Assembly: GCA_017992765.1 (NCBI GenBank)
Contig: JAGOOA010000019.1
Span: 1 to 47,315, forward strand
Direction of reading: 5' to 3'
DNA: 47,315 nt
DNA from: Syntrophorhabdaceae bacterium
GTDB taxonomy: Bacteria > Desulfobacterota > Syntrophorhabdia > Syntrophorhabdales > Syntrophorhabdaceae
Each line of letters starts with the position of its first letter. Positions within the stretch are counted from its first letter, which is position 1. The translations under genes were made by a program, and so were the position numbers. Below, piece after piece: positions 22,020 through 41,291 of this stretch. The notes under the pieces were generated by a model. It searched no databases. It saw only the letters and a list, made by a program, of their open reading frames with translations, and was not told the DNA's origin.

Positions 22020-22322
22020 ATGGAAAGGGTTTATGTATCCACGAAAAGAGATATGGCACACAAAAATCCTCAGTCTACGTTTCTGATCGTCGCCTGCCTT
22101 ATTGTATTCGCCCTTGTCTCTTTTTTTATGATGTCCGCCCACAGCCGGCTCCGGGAAGAGCTGATCGCCATGCTCAGGCAAGAGAGGGAGGTCATCGACA
22201 TGAACACCAAGCTCAAAACAGAACTCGCAGGCATTACGCAGGCGAGGATGCTTCAATTAAAGGCAAAAGAGAGGCTTGGACTGAAAAAACCAAAAGATGA
22301 AGAGGTTCTGGTATTGAGATGA
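22020..22322 (+). CDS. ftsL: FtsL-type cell division protein
   Basis: This 100-residue bitopic protein has a short basic N-terminus, one transmembrane helix (about 20-39), then a charged coiled coil (43-85) ending in LGLKKPKDEEVLVL. Size, topology and position between rsmH and the ftsI slot identify it as FtsL, which links FtsQ/FtsB to the FtsWI synthase in model bacteria. Sequence conservation of FtsL is always weak. It starts 11 bases after rsmH with a G-rich Shine-Dalgarno, and its stop overlaps the next gene by 4 bases. Confidence 0.8.
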   Translation: MERVYVSTKRDMAHKNPQSTFLIVACLIVFALVSFFMMSAHSRLREELIAMLRQEREVIDMNTKLKTELAGITQARMLQLKAKERLGLKKPKDEEVLVLR

Positions 22323-23161
22323 ACAAAAGGGCTAACAAAAAGGCCTTTTTCATTTGTGTATTGATTGGATTGATGTACGTTTCCGTAGCGATGAAGCTCC
22401 CTGACAGGCTCGCCATTGGAAGGACTTCGGAACCGCAGGATGCATCGCCGACCGGCCTGAGCGTTTCCATACCAAAACCGGCTCCGGTAAACGCTCCGGC
22501 GCCGGCGAACCTGCAGAAGGCCGAGCCGGTTATCGAGCCTTCCTATTTTGTTGCGATCCCCATCGTCTGTTTCGCGATCAGGGAAGGGCTCATTGAAAAG
22601 GAGGGGCTTATCTTCATAAAGAAAGAGGGCCAGGGCAGCGCCTATTGCAAAAAGCCCCTGGACATACTGAAGGAAAAGGACGAAGAGGGGTTAAAGAGCA
22701 TAGCCAGGATCGTCGGGAAGAAGCAGCTTGTCTCCTTTTTCAAAAAAGAGGGCGTCACGCTCCGCGAAGAACTGCCCCCCCAGGAAGTGGTCCTCGGAAA
22801 GGGGTACGCGATAGAGAAAAACATCATCCTCTCTATGTACAGGAGGAACGTTCCCGAAGATTACAGCGCCCTCTTCCCTTATAGGGTGCACGCAATGGAG
22901 ATCAGGAGGGTAAATGACCGCTTTGAGTTCGGGCACGTCCCTGATGCCCTGAGGGCGCGGTCAGACAGTGAGAAAAATGAATGGGTCATGCCCAGCCTCG
23001 TCAATCTTCCCATCAAGGCAGCCCTTGAAAAGCTGGCGCCGCACACTTCAAGGATAAAGATACACGGGAGCGGCCTTGTTGCGGAACAGCAGCCAAAGGC
23101 CCTTGAAAAGATGAAAGGCGAGATGGAGTGCGTCATCCACGGGAGGTCGTACAAGCAATGA
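22319..23161 (+). CDS. Unrecognised PASTA-domain membrane protein in the ftsI position
   Basis: This 280-residue protein has a basic N-terminus, one transmembrane helix (about 9-26), a proline/alanine-rich linker (44-73), a charged region of unknown fold (about 75-215) and a C-terminal PASTA-like domain (about 223-276: VMPSLVNLPIKAALEKL, then HGSGLVAEQQPKALEKM). The order mimics a transpeptidase FtsI with PASTA, but the dimerisation and transpeptidase domains are absent. There is no SxxK/SxN/KTG set; one SRIK inside the PASTA segment is coincidental. It overlaps ftsL by 4 bases (ATGA) and murE by 4 bases, so it is a regular operon member. It probably sits at the septum with its domain in the periplasm; that is inferred. 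Confidence 0.8.
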   Translation: MNKRANKKAFFICVLIGLMYVSVAMKLPDRLAIGRTSEPQDASPTGLSVSIPKPAPVNAPAPANLQKAEPVIEPSYFVAIPIVCFAIREGLIEKEGLIFIKKEGQGSAYCKKPLDILKEKDEEGLKSIARIVGKKQLVSFFKKEGVTLREELPPQEVVLGKGYAIEKNIILSMYRRNVPEDYSALFPYRVHAMEIRRVNDRFEFGHVPDALRARSDSEKNEWVMPSLVNLPIKAALEKLAPHTSRIKIHGSGLVAEQQPKALEKMKGEMECVIHGRSYKQ

Positions 23162-27031: not shown

Positions 27032-28357
27032 ATGGAGCTTCCCGATAGCATATTGATCGTTGGACTTGGCGCCTCCGGAATTGCCGCCGCAAAATTCCTC
27101 CACGGAAAGGGGAAGCGCATCGCCCTTGCCGACGAGAAGGACGAGACGGCGCTCGCGCCTGTCCTCAGATCGCTGAACGGGATCGGGTTCACGGGACATT
27201 TCGGCCCCCACAGGGCAGAAGACTTTCTCCGATATCCCCTCATCGTTGTCAGCCCCGGGGTCGACAGCGCGCTGCCTGTCCTGAAAGAGGCCATTGCAAA
27301 AGGGATACGGGTCATCGGCGAGATAGAGCTTGCCTATATGTTCCTCGACGCACCTGTTATCGCGATAACAGGGACAAACGGGAAAACGACGACGACGACG
27401 CTCATCGGGGAGATATTCAAAAAGGCCTTCGGCAATGTCTTCGTCGGTGGAAACATCGGGAACCCGCTCATCAATTATGCCCTTGGAGGAGAAAAGGCGC
27501 AGTATATAATTGTCGAGATCAGCAGCTTCCAGCTTGAGACGGTAGAGGCCTTCAGGGCGAATACGGCGATTCTCCTGAATATCACCGAAGATCACCTTGA
27601 CAGGTACAGGAGCTTCGACGAATACAGGGAAGCGAAATACAGGATCTTTGAGCGCCAGACGGAAGAGGACTATGCGGTGGTCATCGACGGCCTTGAGGCC
27701 CCCGGGGCCGGAAAAGGCAGGCTGCTTTCTTTCTCAACGGCAGGCCGGCCGGAAGAAGGCGCCTTTGCGGAGGGCGGCAAACTCTACGTGCGGTTGAATG
27801 GAAATGAGTTCGTATACGAACGAGGCATTTCCCCGCTCGTGGGCATACACAACACGGAGAATATCCTCGCGGCGCTCCTCACCGCCCATATATATGGCAT
27901 AGGCCAGGCAACGATAGGCGCTTCGCTCCAGGAGTTCAAAGGCCTGCCGCACAGGGTCGAGCTGGTCAGGGAACTGAAAGGGGTCAGGTACTATAATGAT
28001 TCCAAGGCAACCAACGTAGATGCCACAAAAAGGGCCCTGGAAAACATAGAGGGCAACGTGATCCTCATTGCGGGCGGCAAAGATAAAGGCGGCAGCTACC
28101 GGGCGATTGCGGAGGTTGCCCATAAGATCAAGGTCCTTATCGTTATCGGTGAAGCAAAGGAAAAGATCACCGCAGAGCTGGGGGGCCATGTCGTGATCTA
28201 CAAAGAAGAGGATATGGCCGGCGCCGTGCGCGCCGCTTACGAGGCTGCGGAAAGCGGCGATATCGTCCTCCTCTCCCCCATGTGCAGCAGCTTCGATATG
28301 TTTACGGATTACAAACACCGGGGGAACACGTACAGGGAAATGGTGGAGTCTTTATGA
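27032..28357 (+). CDS. murD: UDP-MurNAc-L-Ala:D-Glu ligase
   Basis: This 441-residue Mur ligase has an N-terminal Rossmann loop (VGLGASGIAAAKFL), the ATP loop TGTNGKTTTTT, the NITEDHLDRY segment and YNDSKATNVDAT near the C-terminal domain. It adds D-glutamate to UDP-MurNAc-L-Ala. A GAGGTGAT Shine-Dalgarno overlaps the end of mraY. Its TGA overlaps the ATG of the next gene. Confidence 0.96.
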   Translation: MELPDSILIVGLGASGIAAAKFLHGKGKRIALADEKDETALAPVLRSLNGIGFTGHFGPHRAEDFLRYPLIVVSPGVDSALPVLKEAIAKGIRVIGEIELAYMFLDAPVIAITGTNGKTTTTTLIGEIFKKAFGNVFVGGNIGNPLINYALGGEKAQYIIVEISSFQLETVEAFRANTAILLNITEDHLDRYRSFDEYREAKYRIFERQTEEDYAVVIDGLEAPGAGKGRLLSFSTAGRPEEGAFAEGGKLYVRLNGNEFVYERGISPLVGIHNTENILAALLTAHIYGIGQATIGASLQEFKGLPHRVELVRELKGVRYYNDSKATNVDATKRALENIEGNVILIAGGKDKGGSYRAIAEVAHKIKVLIVIGEAKEKITAELGGHVVIYKEEDMAGAVRAAYEAAESGDIVLLSPMCSSFDMFTDYKHRGNTYREMVESL

Positions 28358-29142
28358 AGAAGATCTGTATCTATATCCTGGCAGCGACCCTATTATACAG
28401 TTTCTTCCGCGAGCTCAACGTTGTCAAGGTGCTGCTCATGCTTGCCGCCCTCGGTGCGATCTTTGCCATAGAACTCATCCCCGCAAAATATATAATGGCG
28501 ATGAAATACCCCGTGATACTCCTTTCATTTGCCGCTACAGCCTGTTTCTTCTTTTATCCGAGGGCGCTTACAGGATACCCGATGGAGATCATCATTACAT
28601 TCCTCGCCTTTTATGGCCTCACCTTTTACATAGCCGGAATGGAAGAGAAAAAGAACGACTTCTTCAAGGAGGTTGCCGCGGTATCGATCCTCTTCATCTC
28701 CTCTTCGTTCAATCTTTTTATTGCAGGCAAGCTGCTTTTTATCGTACCCCTTGCCGTTGCAACGATCCTCTTGCTCTTCATCCTCGACAGGAGCCGCCTT
28801 GCGCCCTTCATCGCAGGATACGCCCTCATCGCCATGATAGTCGCCTACAGGCAGGGCATGCATTTCACGGGCACGGGCCTGCTGGGCCTCAATGACATCA
28901 ACCGGTATATCCTCCTTGGAGCGTCTTTCGTCTTTCTGATCATCGGCTTCGCAGGCTTTACGAAAAAACGCACCTTTGCGACGATACTGCCATTTTTCGG
29001 CTTTCTCTACATTGCGGCCGATATCCTTATGGTCCTTGGATTAAGGTCCTCAACAGGGCTTTTGTATCAACCCGTCATACTGCTCGCCATCGTAAGTCCC
29101 CTTGTCGGGATGATGCTGAAGCCCGAAGGAGAACGCATATGA
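28354..29142 (+). CDS. Unrecognised polytopic membrane protein in the ftsW position
   Basis: This 262-residue, highly hydrophobic protein has about ten candidate transmembrane segments (near 4-18, 25-42, 53-69, 77-95, 107-123, 127-144, 149-166, 184-202, 208-228, 236-255). FtsW usually has ten helices but 360-400 residues; here the large periplasmic loop with the SEDS catalytic aspartate and the conserved C-terminal proline/glycine motifs are absent. Soluble loops are short; the longest (167-183) reads QGMHFTGTGLLGLND. ATGA overlaps with murD and murG show it belongs to the operon. It could be a remodelled SEDS protein, a lipid II-handling protein or a division scaffold; the function is unknown. 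Confidence 0.75.
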   Translation: MKKICIYILAATLLYSFFRELNVVKVLLMLAALGAIFAIELIPAKYIMAMKYPVILLSFAATACFFFYPRALTGYPMEIIITFLAFYGLTFYIAGMEEKKNDFFKEVAAVSILFISSSFNLFIAGKLLFIVPLAVATILLLFILDRSRLAPFIAGYALIAMIVAYRQGMHFTGTGLLGLNDINRYILLGASFVFLIIGFAGFTKKRTFATILPFFGFLYIAADILMVLGLRSSTGLLYQPVILLAIVSPLVGMMLKPEGERI

Positions 29143-30206
29143 AGCTCGCCATCTCCGCAGGCGGTACCGGCGGCCATATATTTCCGGGCATTGCTGTCGC
29201 GGAGGCGCTCCTCGCGCAAAACAGCGCAAACGATGTCGTGTTCATCGGGACAGCCTATGGCCTCGAGGGAAAGATCATCCCGCAGGCGGGATTCCGGCTG
29301 TTCTATATTGAGGCACATCAATTTCTCGGCACATCGCCGGTCCATAAGATCAGGACCATGCTGCGCCTCATAAAGGGCGTCTCTATGGCGATGGGCATAC
29401 TTCGCTCAGAAAAACCGGATGCGATACTCGGCATGGGCGGCTTCACGTCCGTCCCTGTTGTGATTGCAGGCATCCTCCTCGGCGTACCCTGCTTCATCCA
29501 TGAACAAAACGTACAGCCCGGCCTGGCCAACAGGCTCCTCTCAAGGATCACGAGGTCCACGTTCATCAGCTTTGAAGAGACGGAGCGTTATCTTGCCGCA
29601 AAAAAGGTCCGCCACACGGGAAACCCCCTGCGCAAGAACCTGAAGGCCGGCGATGTGAACAAGCCTGATGACAGGTTTTCGATCTTCGTCTTCGGCGGAA
29701 GCAGGGGAGCGAAAAGCATCAACGATTCGATCCTCACCCTGCTGCCTTTCCTTGAGAGCTACAAAAACACGATCATGTACCACCAGACTGGCGCAGAGGA
29801 CTACGACCGCATCAGCGGCGGCTACAAGAACACCTCGGTACAGCACGAGGTCTTTCCCTTTACCGATGATATGGCGAAATATTACAGCCTTTCCGATGTG
29901 GTCATTTCGAGGGCAGGCGCTACAACGATCTTCGAGCTCGCCTACTTCAGAAGGGCGGCCATACTCATACCCTACCCCTATTCCGCAGGCGGGCATCAAT
30001 GGAAGAACGCCTCCCAGGTGGAGCAGGCCGGCGGAGGGTATGTGATCGCGAATGACGAGGCGACCGGCGAGCGGCTCTTTGACGTCCTGAAGCACCTTAT
30101 GAAGGAGCCGCAGCTGCTCAAAGAGATGGGAAAGAATATCGGCAGGATATACGTGGAAGACGCAGCGGAACGGATCATCGGAGGGATCGCTGATGGTATT
30201 TCATAA
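29139..30206 (+). CDS. murG: MurG glycosyltransferase (lipid II synthesis)
   Basis: This 355-residue GT-B enzyme transfers GlcNAc from UDP-GlcNAc to lipid I. The phosphate loop GGTGGHIFPG, GMGGFTSVPVVIAG, HEQN and the donor-site segment SRAGATTIFELAYFRRAAILIPYP are intact. It starts in an ATGA overlap and overlaps murC by 14 bases. Confidence 0.97.
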   Translation: MKLAISAGGTGGHIFPGIAVAEALLAQNSANDVVFIGTAYGLEGKIIPQAGFRLFYIEAHQFLGTSPVHKIRTMLRLIKGVSMAMGILRSEKPDAILGMGGFTSVPVVIAGILLGVPCFIHEQNVQPGLANRLLSRITRSTFISFEETERYLAAKKVRHTGNPLRKNLKAGDVNKPDDRFSIFVFGGSRGAKSINDSILTLLPFLESYKNTIMYHQTGAEDYDRISGGYKNTSVQHEVFPFTDDMAKYYSLSDVVISRAGATTIFELAYFRRAAILIPYPYSAGGHQWKNASQVEQAGGGYVIANDEATGERLFDVLKHLMKEPQLLKEMGKNIGRIYVEDAAERIIGGIADGIS

Positions 30207-32447: not shown

Positions 32448-33348
32448 GAAGGAACTGAAAAGAAAGAGGATAGCAGTGCTCTATGGCGGGAGGTCGTCTG
32501 AGAGGGAGATCTCCATCAAAAGCGGCACCGCCGTCCTGAACGGCCTGACCAGGCTCGGCTACAACGCAACCGGCATCGACGCGGCGAAGGACCTCGTCGG
32601 AAAATTGAAAAAGGAGAAGGTGGACATTGCCTTTATCGCCCTCCACGGAAGGTGGGGTGAGGATGGGACGGTGCAAGGGCTCCTCGAGATCATGGGTATT
32701 CCCTATACCGGTTCAGGCGTTCTTGGTTCATCCATGGCCCTGGACAAAGCCATCATGAAGCTTCTCTTTGATAGTAAGGGAATTCCTACTCCGGCCTATC
32801 TGATCTCCACCTCCTCTCATACCCCGGCATTTCCGCTCCCCTATGTCGTGAAGCCGGCCAACGAAGGCTCCACGATCGGCATATCCATTGTCAGGAAAAA
32901 AAGCGAGGCGGCCCGGGCAATAGCGGCTGCGCGGAAATATGACAGGAAGATCATCGTTGAAGAATACGTCGAGGGAAGCGAAATAACCGTGGGCATAGTG
33001 AACGGAAAGGCCCTTCCCATAATCGAGGTGAGGCCGTCGTCGGGCTTCTATGATTTTCATGCAAAGTACACGAAAGGGATGACCGAATATATTATCCCCG
33101 CAAAGATAAAAAGGTCAGCGGCGAACAGGGCCCGGGGCATAGCGCTGGAGGTTTATAAAACCTTTGAGCTCTCCGGGTGCGCAAGGATCGATATGCTCGT
33201 CAAAGAGGAGGCCCCGCTGGTCATAGACATCAATACATCGCCCGGCATGACGGAAACGTCACTTGTGCCCAAGGCATGGGGGCATCTCGGCGGAACCTTC
33301 GACGGGCTTGTCGAAGAGATCCTGAAGGGGGCAAAGCCAAAGATATGA
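32440..33348 (+). CDS. ddl: D-alanine:D-alanine ligase
   Basis: This 302-residue ATP-grasp enzyme joins two D-alanines for MurF. N-terminal LYGGRSSEREIS, VVKPANEGSTIGIS (ATP lid) and the metal site INTSPGMTETSL are visible. A Ser is present where many homologues have Leu or Ile in NTxPGMTE. It overlaps ftsQ by 4 bases (ATGA). Confidence 0.95.
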   Translation: MDKKELKRKRIAVLYGGRSSEREISIKSGTAVLNGLTRLGYNATGIDAAKDLVGKLKKEKVDIAFIALHGRWGEDGTVQGLLEIMGIPYTGSGVLGSSMALDKAIMKLLFDSKGIPTPAYLISTSSHTPAFPLPYVVKPANEGSTIGISIVRKKSEAARAIAAARKYDRKIIVEEYVEGSEITVGIVNGKALPIIEVRPSSGFYDFHAKYTKGMTEYIIPAKIKRSAANRARGIALEVYKTFELSGCARIDMLVKEEAPLVIDINTSPGMTETSLVPKAWGHLGGTFDGLVEEILKGAKPKI

Positions 33349-34046
33349 AAAGGGCCTTATATATATTGTTTCTCGCACCTCTGTGCGTCCTGTCCATACT
33401 CACCATCGTTTATCTCTTCTCAAAGGACGAGCCGCTCTTCTTTTTGAAAAATGTCAGGATCAGCGGCGTGAGCCAGCTTTCGGAGCGGGACATTGTGGGC
33501 AAGGTAACGCCGTACCTGAAGGAAAGCCTCCTGAAGGTAGATATCGGGAAAATAAAAGAGGCCATTACCGACCATCCCTTCGTGCGGGAGGTCCGCGTAA
33601 AAAGGGCATATCCCTTCTCTGTCGTCATCGACGTGAAGGAAAAGGTGCCGTCGGCGTTATGGGTGAAGAACGACGGCGACGTTTTTGTCCTCGATGAATC
33701 CGGTGAGCCTTACAGGAAATTGGGCAAGGGCGCCATCAAGGGGCTCTTTATCATCAACACGAAAGAAAAAGAAGACGTGGCGAGCATATTCAGAGAGGTA
33801 AATGCGTGGTCAACAGAGGGGATCATGAAAAAAGAGAACCTGTCAGAGGTCTCATACAACGAAGGGAACATAACGCTCTTCGGGCTCGACGATGGTGTAG
33901 AGATCATACTCGGCAAGGAAGATCAGAAAAAAAGGCTCAAACGGGCTGTTGCTGTTCTGGGCGACGCCAGGAAGAGAGGGCTCCTGATAAAATGCATCGA
34001 CGCACGGTTTGAAAAAGGCGCCATAATTCAGGAAAGGAAGGGTTAA
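33345..34046 (+). CDS. ftsQ: Cell division protein FtsQ
   Basis: This 233-residue bitopic protein has one transmembrane helix (about 4-24), a POTRA domain starting FFLKNVRISGVSQLSERDI, and a beta domain to the C-terminus. The start at 33345 (MKRALYIL) is chosen because it forms an ATGA overlap with ddl and gives the normal short cytoplasmic tail; the frame is open further upstream inside ddl. FtsQ recruits FtsL/FtsB and the septal synthase. Confidence 0.9.
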   Translation: MKRALYILFLAPLCVLSILTIVYLFSKDEPLFFLKNVRISGVSQLSERDIVGKVTPYLKESLLKVDIGKIKEAITDHPFVREVRVKRAYPFSVVIDVKEKVPSALWVKNDGDVFVLDESGEPYRKLGKGAIKGLFIINTKEKEDVASIFREVNAWSTEGIMKKENLSEVSYNEGNITLFGLDDGVEIILGKEDQKKRLKRAVAVLGDARKRGLLIKCIDARFEKGAIIQERKG

Positions 34047-34047
34047 C

Positions 34048-35292
34048 ATGTTGAGAGAGGAAGACTTGCTCGTCGGGCTTGATATCGGGACCACAAAGAT
34101 CTGCGTAGTCGTGGGGAAGGTTGTGGACGGCAAGGTCAGCATCATCGGCATCGGCTCCCACCCATCTACCGGCCTTCGGAAAGGCGTAGTGGTCAACATG
34201 GACAGCACCGTAAACTCGATAAAGAAGGCCGTCGAAGAGGCAGAGCTCATGGCGGGCATTACAATAAGCAGTTGCCTCGCCGGGATCGGCGGGGCCCACA
34301 TCAAGAGCTTCAACAGCAACGGCGTCGTGGCGGTGAAGGATAAAGAGGTAAAGCAGGATGATATCATACGGGCCATCGACGCGGCAAAGGCCGTGGCGAT
34401 CCCTGCCGACAGGGAGCTCATCCACGTTATCCCCCAGGAATTCATCGTCGATGACCAGGACGGGATAAAGGACCCTATAGGCATTACGGGCGTAAGGCTT
34501 GAGGTAAAGGTCCATATCGTGACGGGCAGCATATCCTCGGCCCAGAACGTCATCAAATGCTGTAAGCTCGCCGGGCTTGAGGTTGACGACATCGTTCTGG
34601 GGCAGCTCGCGTCTTCGGAGGCGACGCTTACCCCTGAGGAGAAAGAGATCGGGGTCGCCCTCGTCGACACGGGAGGCGGCACCAGCGACATCGCCATATA
34701 CTCCAACGGGAGCATCGCCTACACAGCGGTCCTTCCCTTCGGGGGAAACAACATCACGAACGATATCGCGATCGGCCTCAGGACGCCCCTCGAAGAGGCG
34801 GAAAAGATCAAGAAGAAATACGGCTGCGCCTTTGCGGGCATGATCGGCGCCAACGAAACGATAGAGGTACCGAGCGTCGGCGGAAGGAAGCCAAGGACGC
34901 TCCAGAGAAAGACCCTCGCGGATATTATTGAGCCGAGAGTGGAAGAGATATCTTTATTGATCTACGAAGAGATCAAAAAGTCCGGGCTCGAACGGCTCCT
35001 CGCATCCGGGGTAGTCCTTACCGGCGGCTGCGCAAACCTCGAGGGCATCCCCGAACTGGTCGAGAATATCTTTAACCTCCCTTCAAGGCGGGGTTATCCG
35101 ATAGGCGTCGGCGGCCTTACCGATGTTGTGAACAACCCTATATATTCTACAGGGGTAGGGCTCCTGTTGTACGGCTTTAAAAACGGCAAGACAAGCAAGC
35201 GGGGGTATGGCCAGGGGAGGTCGATCAAAAAACTGTTTAGCGGTCAAAAATTACTCGGCAGAATGAGAGAATGGTTTAAAGAAATTTTTTAG
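34048..35292 (+). CDS. ftsA: Cell division protein FtsA
   Basis: This 414-residue actin-like ATPase anchors FtsZ to the membrane. Phosphate-1 [14 protein letters not shown], phosphate-2 [12 protein letters not shown] and the adenosine motif [11 protein letters not shown] are present. The C-terminus ends in [12 protein letters not shown], an amphipathic membrane-targeting helix. A GGAAGGG Shine-Dalgarno precedes the start, one base after ftsQ. Confidence 0.96.
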
Positions 35293-35299
35293 GAGGTGC

Positions 35300-36469
35300 A
35301 TGGTGAGTGCAATGTTTTATATGGACGAGGGCAATGGTTTTGCAGCAAAATTGATCGTCGTGGGGGTCGGGGGAGGAGGTTGCAATGCCCTGAACAACAT
35401 GGTCGACGCAGGCATCCAGGGCGTCGAATTTCTGGCGGTCAACACGGACGTCAAGTCGCTCAACATGTGCAAGGCCCCTATCAAGATCCAGGTCGGCACC
35501 AAGCTGACGCAGGGTCTCGGGGCCGGAGCAAATCCGGAGGTGGGAAAAAAGGCAGCCCTTGAGGACGTCGACAAGATCAAGGACCACCTGAAGGGCGCCC
35601 ATATGGTCTTCATCACCTGCGGGCTCGGCGGCGGCACCGGCACGGGGGCCTCTCCGGTCATCGCCGAGATATCGAGAGAGATCGGGGCACTCACCGTAGC
35701 CATCGCCACCAAACCTTTTGCCTTTGAGGGAAGGGACAGGATGACGCAGGCCGAAAGCGGCGTCACCCAGTTGAAAACGCGCGTTGACTCCCTGATCACG
35801 ATCCCCAACCAGAGGCTCCTTTCTATCGGCGGCAAGCATATGACCATCATGGAGGCGTTCCTCAGGGCCGACGAAGTACTTCTCAACGCGGTGCGAAGCA
35901 TATCAGACCTTATCGTAGGCTCTGGCCACGTCGTCGTCGACTTCGCAGACGTGAAGACGATCATGAGCGAGCGCGGAATGGCGATCATGGGCATCGGCGA
36001 GGCAACCGGCGACACCCGGGCGAGGGATGCTGCCCAGAAAGCAATATCAAGCCCTCTTCTTGAAGATATATCGATACACGGGGCACGGGGAGTGCTCATA
36101 AACGTAACGGGGAACACGGATATGACCCTAAGCGAGGTCAACGACGCATCAACGCTCATCCAGGAACAGGCCCATGAAAATGCAAAGATCATATGGGGGC
36201 TCGTGTATGATGAAAAGATGGCCGATGCCATCAGGATAACCGTTATCGCCACCGGCTTTGAAGAACAGGTCCAGGCAGAGCAGGGCGGCGCCGAAGCGAT
36301 CACGGAGAGCAGGCTTTTTGGCGAAGAGAATATCCCGCCGTTCATAAGGAAGAAGGTGGCCATCGACTACAAGGTCGACTATAAGGATATCAAGCAGAAA
36401 AGCGACAGCGCCGAGATAGACGATGACAGGTATGACATCCCTACGTTCCTCAGGAAGCAGGCGGACTGA
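35300..36469 (+). CDS. ftsZ: Cell division protein FtsZ
   Basis: This 389-residue tubulin-like GTPase forms the Z-ring. The GTP site [12 protein letters not shown], the tubulin signature [13 protein letters not shown] and the T7 loop [13 protein letters not shown] are intact. The conserved C-terminal peptide YDIPTFLRK, which binds FtsA, ends the protein after a short linker. The AGGAGG at 35291-35296 is only 3 bases from the ATG at 35300, so the GTG at 35303 (6 bases away) may be the real start. It is the last gene of the dcw cluster. Confidence 0.97.
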
Positions 36470-40454: not shown

Positions 40455-41291
40455 CTAATGTGCGGGGTTGTTCCCGGTGACTGGCTGGCTTTCCCCGTTT
40501 TCCTTCTGTTCCAGCACTTCATCATATTCCGGCACCACGATGCCCCGCCTCACCATGATGTTATAGATGATCTGTGCCCGCTTCTCCACGTACCGGGAAG
40601 AGCCGTCAAGCTTGTACTTCCTCGGGTTCGGCAGGACAACTGCCAGTTTGGCCGCCTCCTGTGCTGTCAGAAGCGCGGCGGGTTTGCCGAAATAACGGAG
40701 CGAGGCCATCTCGGCGCCGAAGATGCCTTCGCCCCATTCAACCACATTGAGGTAGAGCTCAAGTATCCTCCGTTTCGATAGCGTCCGCTCGATCCTCCAC
40801 GTGATGATCGCCTCTTTCAGTTTCCGTATCGGGTTCTTGTCAGGCGTAAGGTAGAGATTTTTTGTGAGCTGCTGGCTTATCGTGCTCCCTCCGAATTTGA
40901 ACTTCCCCTTTTCAACGTTCTTTTCCAGGGCATTCTGGATCGCGTCAAGGTCAAAGCCGTGATGAGACCAGAACTTGTCGTCCTCCGCGATGATCACCGC
41001 CTTAAAAAGGTAGGGAGAGATCTCCTTGAGCGAAACCCATTTTCTCTGTATTTTTATCTTCTTCCCTTTCTGTTTCCATTCCTGCTCACGGTATTCCATG
41101 AAAGATGTCTTGCCGGGGTTCTGCCTTTTCAGCTTCGCTACGTCCGGGTAGAAAAAGTAAAGACCCACGAAGCCTATCGCCGCGAGAAACCCAAGGATAA
41201 AAACAGCTTTTATAAGCCTGCCGATGACCCCTTTGTTCTTGTTTCGTTTCATAAGGGCATTCTGTTCACGATATGCGGTTTCGTTCTCCAT
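40455..41291 (-). CDS. mtgA: Monofunctional peptidoglycan glycosyltransferase
   Basis: This 278-residue bitopic protein has a transmembrane helix (about 26-47) and a periplasmic GT51 domain. It polymerises lipid II into glycan strands. The catalytic glutamate E103 is in IAEDDKFWSHHGFD; GGSTISQQLTKNLYL and KRRILELYLNVVEWG complete the motifs. No transpeptidase domain follows. It is the only recognisable glycan polymerase in the window, which is relevant because the dcw cluster lacks FtsW. An alternative start is M14. Confidence 0.93.
   Translation of the reverse strand: MENETAYREQNALMKRNKNKGVIGRLIKAVFILGFLAAIGFVGLYFFYPDVAKLKRQNPGKTSFMEYREQEWKQKGKKIKIQRKWVSLKEISPYLFKAVIIAEDDKFWSHHGFDLDAIQNALEKNVEKGKFKFGGSTISQQLTKNLYLTPDKNPIRKLKEAIITWRIERTLSKRRILELYLNVVEWGEGIFGAEMASLRYFGKPAALLTAQEAAKLAVVLPNPRKYKLDGSSRYVEKRAQIIYNIMVRRGIVVPEYDEVLEQKENGESQPVTGNNPAH

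Follow-up and report, generated by a model that had tools for sequence, protein, structure and literature searches.

A shortened, motif-less FtsW-like protein and a reduced FtsI-like partner in the division and cell wall cluster of Syntrophorhabdales, a possible non-catalytic divisome pair

The division and cell wall (dcw) gene cluster on contig JAGOOA010000019.1 of a Syntrophorhabdaceae bacterium (assembly GCA_017992765.1; the analysed window is the whole stretch of 47,315 nucleotides, taken from a 2.42 Mb draft genome that is 95% complete) carries, in the position of ftsW, a gene for a protein of 262 residues. We propose, at a probability of roughly 0.6, that FtsW has been reduced in Syntrophorhabdales to this pseudo-polymerase, that FtsI, its partner, has undergone a parallel decay, and that the two form a complex which signals to a surrogate synthase. 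The two genes in question are the following.

28354..29142, + strand: shrunken FtsW-like (pseudo-SEDS) protein, 262 amino acids, ten helices; based on the open reading frame (ORF), conservation, predicted structure, absent motifs and the lack of a Pfam match
22319..23161, + strand: pseudo-FtsI with one transmembrane (TM) helix, a linker, a shrunken transpeptidase-like domain (about residues 70-210) and a PASTA domain (about residues 221-276)

The ORF in the ftsW slot runs from an ATG at 28354 to a TGA at 29142 and is joined to both neighbours by ATGA overlaps (murD ends at 28357, murG starts at 29139), in a dcw cluster that is otherwise complete. The first-pass annotation of this DNA had described a ten-segment protein of this length between murD and murG, and both the coordinates and the ten-helix model given below agree with it. 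Of the 99 relatives searched, 46 belong to the order Syntrophorhabdales and 53 to other parts of the phylum; the gene was found in 45 of the former, spanning three families, and in none of the latter. The sole genome of the order in which it is missing (G038) is 66% complete. A profile search of 395 genomes of the phylum gave full matches only in Syntrophorhabdales (17 genomes), and partial matches in eight further genomes (E 5e-4 to 0.065). murG follows immediately downstream in 45/45 loci. The family alignment comprises 44 of 46 ORFs (two fragments from locus L047 were excluded), and the length of its members varies only between 257 and 263 residues. The ratio of nonsynonymous to synonymous substitution rates (dN/dS, NG86 method) is 0.09-0.25 against six congeners, i.e. 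the gene is under purifying selection. A chance ORF is ruled out by the presence across the order and the position next to murG, and an artefact in the assembly of a single genome by the presence in 45 genomes.

What the family has lost is the signature of the SEDS polymerases. The motifs HTD, QPSE, QPDxG and YGGS are found in none of the 44 members. RodA of the same order has HTDF, QPSE..K, QPDxG and SYGGSS intact (9 out of 9 proteins), and among 30 FtsW proteins of the outgroup HTDF is present in 28, QPSE..K in 20, [QR]PDxG in 23 and SYGGSS in 19. The catalytic aspartate is presumably that of HTDF in the loop between TM7 and TM8, which agrees with the D255A named in the title of the 6bas entry; in the AlphaFold2 model of the 262-residue protein this loop has about 14 residues. 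Thus the large periplasmic loop and the conserved aspartate region are indeed missing, as the first-pass annotation had stated. That annotation had also reasoned that a SEDS fold with a conserved catalytic aspartate would make the protein simply a divergent FtsW; the loop that holds the aspartate is gone, and the absence of the SEDS motifs rules out an ordinary divergent FtsW. Three residues, K105, N120 and D223, are invariant in 44/44 members; they are polar and lie within the membrane.

The fold, in contrast to the motifs, appears to be kept. The AlphaFold2 model, built from 22 sequences, contains ten long helices (residues 2-16, 23-41, 51-67, 77-94, 103-123, 127-143, 147-166, 181-204, 208-227 and 239-254) and one short helix (residues 44-49), so that the predicted structure shows, at moderate model confidence, the ten-TM SEDS fold. 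In the VIA-align search the top seven entries are all solved SEDS structures (Z 9.5-11.3), with 173-196 residues aligned, i.e. nearly the whole chain: RodA 6bas (Z 11.3, 192 aligned), FtsW 8p1u (Z 10.6, 196 aligned), FtsW 8bh1 (Z 9.5), and 8tj3, 6bar, 6pl5 and 6pl6. The eighth is the O-antigen ligase WaaL (Z 9.4, 149 aligned), after which the list falls to Z 6.8 over 53 residues. Foldseek places SEDS proteins at ranks 1, 2, 3 and 5.

At the level of sequence profiles the similarity is weak and equivocal. HHalign of the family against a reference profile of 30 FtsW proteins from dcw clusters of other families gives a score of 31.7 (P 0.0017, probability 15%), collinear over TM2-TM6, while the scores for RodA, MraY and reversed FtsW are 12.9, 18.3 and 21.3, respectively. 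The maxima of the controls also remain below 31.7 (27.2 in 60 block shuffles, 21.2 in 40 column shuffles, 26.6 in 30 reversed subsets). The global mode (-glob) of HHalign found nothing for the family, and a search of PHROGs gave no match. The SEDS family PF01098 was listed for 0/44 members at E up to 10, and the MurJ family PF03023 also for 0/44. A match seen by eye between the last two helices and TM9-TM10 of SEDS proteins was unsupported by HHalign of the C-terminal part and was not used. Since the solved SEDS entries top the fold search, the collinear FtsW match lies above the shuffles and the position is orthologous, we regard fold, profile and position jointly as good evidence of descent from FtsW, although by sequence alone the evidence is weak. 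The comparison with FtsW and RodA proposed in the first-pass annotation came out with SEDS entries ranking first; of its two options, a reduced SEDS protein is supported by fold, profile and position, and an unrelated replacement is not supported.

The gene in the ftsI position, which the first-pass annotation did not consider, is reduced as well. Of the 45 dcw loci of Syntrophorhabdales, 41 yielded it; the other four (L046, L055, L069 and L078) yielded neither it nor ftsL, and these loci are of small extent or have their start near the gene. The protein of the window has 280 residues and lacks the pedestal. Its predicted model is confident at residues 70-210 (predicted local distance difference test, pLDDT, mostly around 90) and displays a transpeptidase fold: the best Foldseek hit is PBP2X (E 8.6e-5, prob 1.00), followed by other transpeptidases and class D beta-lactamases, and VIA-align gives Z of about 11 against the transpeptidase fold over model residues 59-219. 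Profile comparison with 11 FtsI proteins of the outgroup (from 11 of 12 dcw loci, as L139 gave none) is significant (P 2.6e-10) and is carried by the PASTA domain; the part preceding PASTA is collinear with the transpeptidase domain at P 0.0059, with reversed or unrelated controls at 0.16 or worse and P 0.06 when both sides are reversed. In the alignment of 38 out of the 41 ORFs (L047 and L051, which are cut at the N-terminus, and L053, with a foreign N-terminus, were excluded) none of the motifs SxxK, SxN and KTG is kept (0/38), and all three are present in 11/11 FtsI proteins of FtsW-bearing outgroups. PASTA was listed for 32/38 proteins (E up to 10, best 1.1e-7), and PBP_dimer (PF03717, the pedestal) and Transpeptidase for 0/38; the outgroup FtsI proteins scanned have all three domains (3/3). 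The dN/dS of the gene is 0.11-0.23 against three congeners. In genome G001 the ORF in this position (L053 14507-15832, - strand; L084) has an unrelated N-terminal half, perhaps as a result of misassembly.

Since the SEDS motifs on one side and SxxK, SxN and KTG on the other are missing, the ftsW/ftsI-position pair is devoid of both active sites. It is also devoid of extracellular loop 4 (ECL4) and of the pedestal, which an excerpt of PMC8078798 describes as the interface through which FtsI activates FtsW.

The remaining wall genes bear on what might replace the missing activities. The other features of the window are listed below.

22020..22322, + strand: ftsL, by its position before ftsI and a weak DivIC-type Pfam match (E 0.0014, below cut-off)
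27032..28357, + strand: murD, by sequence and position
29139..30206, + strand: murG, by sequence, with orthologues in 45/45 loci
33339..34046, + strand: ftsQ, with POTRA_1 and FtsQ_DivIB_C
34048..35292, + strand: ftsA, by sequence and position
35300..36469, + strand: ftsZ, by sequence and position
40455..41291, - strand: monofunctional glycosyltransferase, MtgA-like (PF00912), a candidate surrogate septal polymerase

The source genome has one SEDS protein (PF01098), the RodA of an mreB-mreC-mreD-pbp2-rodA operon, together with one class B penicillin-binding protein (PBP), two class A PBPs (contig C48) and one MtgA-like protein; a fourth match to PF00905 (contig C65, 311 amino acids) is weak and below the cut-off. 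RodA-PBP2 is thus the only intact pair of a SEDS protein and a class B PBP in this genome. The search for ftsW or rodA elsewhere, which the first-pass annotation had called for, returned in this draft genome only this RodA beside PBP2, and a true FtsW at another site was rejected. Across the order PF01098 is matched in 46/46 genomes, with a single match in 43; the best matches are partial in G003, G013, G023, G033, G034 and G037, which are fragmented assemblies. An adjacent PBP2 identifies the single SEDS protein as RodA in nine of these genomes; in the remainder this identity is presumed from the single count. Two matches occur in G015, G023 and G041, the second one in G041 being a fragment of 92 positions. 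G023 (L169) and G015 (L170), which belong to the same genus, have an extra, weak and divergent SEDS protein of about 460 residues that adjoins an extra class B PBP. PF00912 is present in 46/46 genomes, and a short MtgA-like ORF in 32/46 (0/3 in the genomes of family f3). In the window the distance from the ftsW-position gene downstream to the MtgA-like gene is about 11 kb; nine genomes of the order have the two on one contig, about 10-11 kb apart. The lipid II flippase MurJ was detected in 45/46 genomes, above cut-off in 44.

In the reading that we prefer, FtsW has retained its ten-helix membrane fold, as the structure prediction indicates, and no longer has the SEDS signature motifs or the periplasmic loop that bears the catalytic aspartate. 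FtsI has decayed in step, leaving a dead transpeptidase remnant and PASTA; its pedestal, which acts on that loop to activate FtsW in the FtsWI complex, is gone. The pair might still form a membrane complex, most likely a non-catalytic divisome scaffold, that passes the signal of FtsA, FtsQ and FtsL to a surrogate synthase, and the PASTA domain may hold this complex at the nascent septal wall. Polymerisation of the septal wall itself would then fall to class A PBPs, MtgA or both, or else to RodA-PBP2; we place the former somewhat above the latter.

A number of points weigh against this proposal. The confidence of the FtsW-like model is moderate (pLDDT 62.5; predicted template modelling score, pTM, 0.57), its Foldseek E-values are weak (0.38-1.3), and helical models can reach VIA-align Z values of 13-14 simply through a common arrangement. 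As many as 12 of the 30 forward FtsW subsets fail to exceed the top score of the reversed subsets (26.6), the C-terminal part of the family alone gives no HHalign match to the C-termini of FtsW and RodA, and the family has no match in Pfam, NCBIfam or PDB sequences. In one genome that is 99% complete (G018, L047 2882-3600, - strand) an in-frame TAG splits the ftsW-position gene, as a result of either decay or a sequencing error. Finally, both the function as a scaffold and the choice of surrogate enzyme are inferred.

These weaknesses leave some room for other explanations. If the slot had been taken over by an unrelated membrane protein, the lack of any match in the sequence libraries and the very weak profile similarity to FtsW would be expected; we consider this improbable, as the number and order of the helices are those of SEDS proteins, SEDS structures top the fold search with a gap below them, the profile favours FtsW over RodA and MraY, and the neighbour in the ftsI slot resembles a decayed FtsI rather than a replacement. 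It is equally hard to believe in a relic without any function, even though all catalytic motifs are lost, the gene is interrupted in G018 and related families have dropped ftsW entirely: a relic would hardly be kept in 45 of 46 genomes and three families, with a dN/dS of 0.09-0.25 within the genus and a constant length of 257-263 residues in 44 members.

The invariant residues within the membrane allow for two further functions. One is that the protein, though extremely divergent, is still an active SEDS glycosyltransferase whose catalysis depends on other residues, e.g. the intramembrane Asp223 with Lys105 and Asn120. The invariance of the three residues in 44/44 members and the predicted SEDS fold speak for it, but the whole loop of the catalytic aspartate, QPSE and QPDxG are gone, the crosslinking and activating partner is dead and its pedestal missing, and ftsW is absent from the dcw cluster in ten other families, whose members thus manage without this activity; we therefore give it very little credence. 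The other is that the protein handles lipid II or the carrier lipid, by flipping it or by supplying class A PBPs or MtgA with lipid II, instead of acting as a scaffold. Conserved polar residues inside the membrane would suit such a role, no catalytic loop would be required for it, and PMC6327494 cites a past report of FtsW as a transporter of lipid II. Still, it seems unlikely to us, given that MurJ is available in nearly all genomes of the order. A reduced FtsW that serves with its FtsI partner as a non-catalytic scaffold remains our preferred explanation.

It is instructive to compare this pair with known systems. The likeness to FtsW and RodA (SEDS, PF01098) lies in the ten-helix fold with a juxtamembrane helix, the murD-murG position and the weak, collinear profile similarity to FtsW; the differences are the size (262 versus about 370 residues), the loss of ECL4 with the catalytic aspartate, QPSE, QPDxG and SYGGSS, and the fact that PF01098 is blind to the family. 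The partner gene shares with FtsI/PBP3 bearing a C-terminal PASTA domain the location between ftsL and murE, the single TM helix, the transpeptidase-like fold and PASTA itself, but it encodes 280 versus about 655 residues and is without pedestal, SxxK, SxN and KTG. PMC10693644 presents FtsW-FtsI as a pair that is universally essential for making the septal wall. According to the same paper, Clostridioides difficile has no canonical FtsW/FtsI pair and its septum is built by a surrogate class A PBP1, which indicates that an exchange of FtsW/FtsI for another synthase is workable. There, however, the dcw genes are SpoVE/SpoVD, which serve sporulation, whereas here a non-clostridial syntroph is the host and neither dcw protein has kept its catalytic motifs. 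A catalytically inactive SpoVD partly supports asymmetric division in C. difficile, as an extract of PMC12713402 states. In Thermodesulfobacteria the absence of ftsW from the dcw cluster is already published (PMC8871954), but the excerpted text of that paper makes no mention of an inactivation of FtsI, and Syntrophorhabdales retain a shrunken FtsW. Both cases are partial precedents. In the open-licence literature we found no published account of a shrunken FtsW, a dead FtsI or their coupling in these taxa. If our proposal is true, an order with a conserved yet catalytically dead-looking FtsW and FtsI, within a phylum where the inactivation of FtsI follows the loss of FtsW from genome to genome, separates the structural role of the pair from the enzymatic one, and such genomes are natural experiments on the target of the FtsA/FtsQ/FtsL signal, on the polymerases that replace FtsW and on the need for FtsI without its transpeptidase. 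It also corrects the annotation, as the ftsI and ftsW slots are kept in these genomes and the enzymes are absent.

The loss of FtsW is not restricted to Syntrophorhabdales; this too had escaped the first-pass annotation, the interpretation of which is thus supported in part. Most genomes of the phylum have two SEDS proteins. A wider survey covered the dcw loci (L174-L181 and L193-L202) of 18 genomes, mostly with a single SEDS protein, from ten other families, and in 18/18 loci murG comes directly after a Mur ligase gene, ftsW being absent between the two (in L199 the tiling did not call the murG ORF, and murG was placed by a separate search). The lone SEDS protein adjoins PBP2 in the 14 genomes examined and scores better as RodA than as FtsW in 13; in the fourteenth, G170, PBP2 was recognised without the SEDS ORF being resolved. 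This count leaves out G162 and G096, as well as G059, which has two SEDS matches, and G159, which has none. In G159 (99% complete; dcw in L197) there is no SEDS match at all, and the dcw cluster contains a motif-less FtsI.

A gene in the ftsI position, of about 320-666 residues, is present in all 17 loci that reach it (L176 does not). None of these proteins keeps any of SxxK, SxN and KTG (0/17), whereas all three are found in 11/11 FtsI proteins of FtsW-bearing outgroups; the most reduced of these FtsI proteins align loosely, so that in them the motifs are either deleted or not alignable. FtsW loss and FtsI inactivation so go together. The phylogeny was calculated from MurG and MraY only, because the murD and murE profiles match all Mur ligases, and comprises 42 rows (L139, which has a long branch, L181, the third genome of family f20, and L199 were left out). 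On this tree the FtsW-less state needs three changes, namely in Syntrophorhabdales, in f20 and in the clade of the rest, and a single common FtsW-less clade is rejected by the approximately unbiased (AU) test (p-AU 0.0175 without f20, 0.032 with f20). The state therefore likely had two or three independent origins; the bootstraps of the deep nodes are low (29-68).

Taken at its widest, the proposal would be that Syntrophorhabdales, and convergently the other lineages that dropped ftsW, have a non-catalytic divisome core in which FtsI (and here also FtsW) is structural or sensing only. Catalysis by FtsW-FtsI would then be dispensable for FtsZ-based division, the septum would be built under the control of this core by MtgA, a class A PBP or RodA-PBP2 in a dual role, and the two catalytic losses would be linked. 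We lean slightly towards this broader view. The reverse loss was also observed: four genomes (L166, L167, L168 and L186) have FtsW, located in the dcw cluster, as their only PF01098 match, and no RodA.
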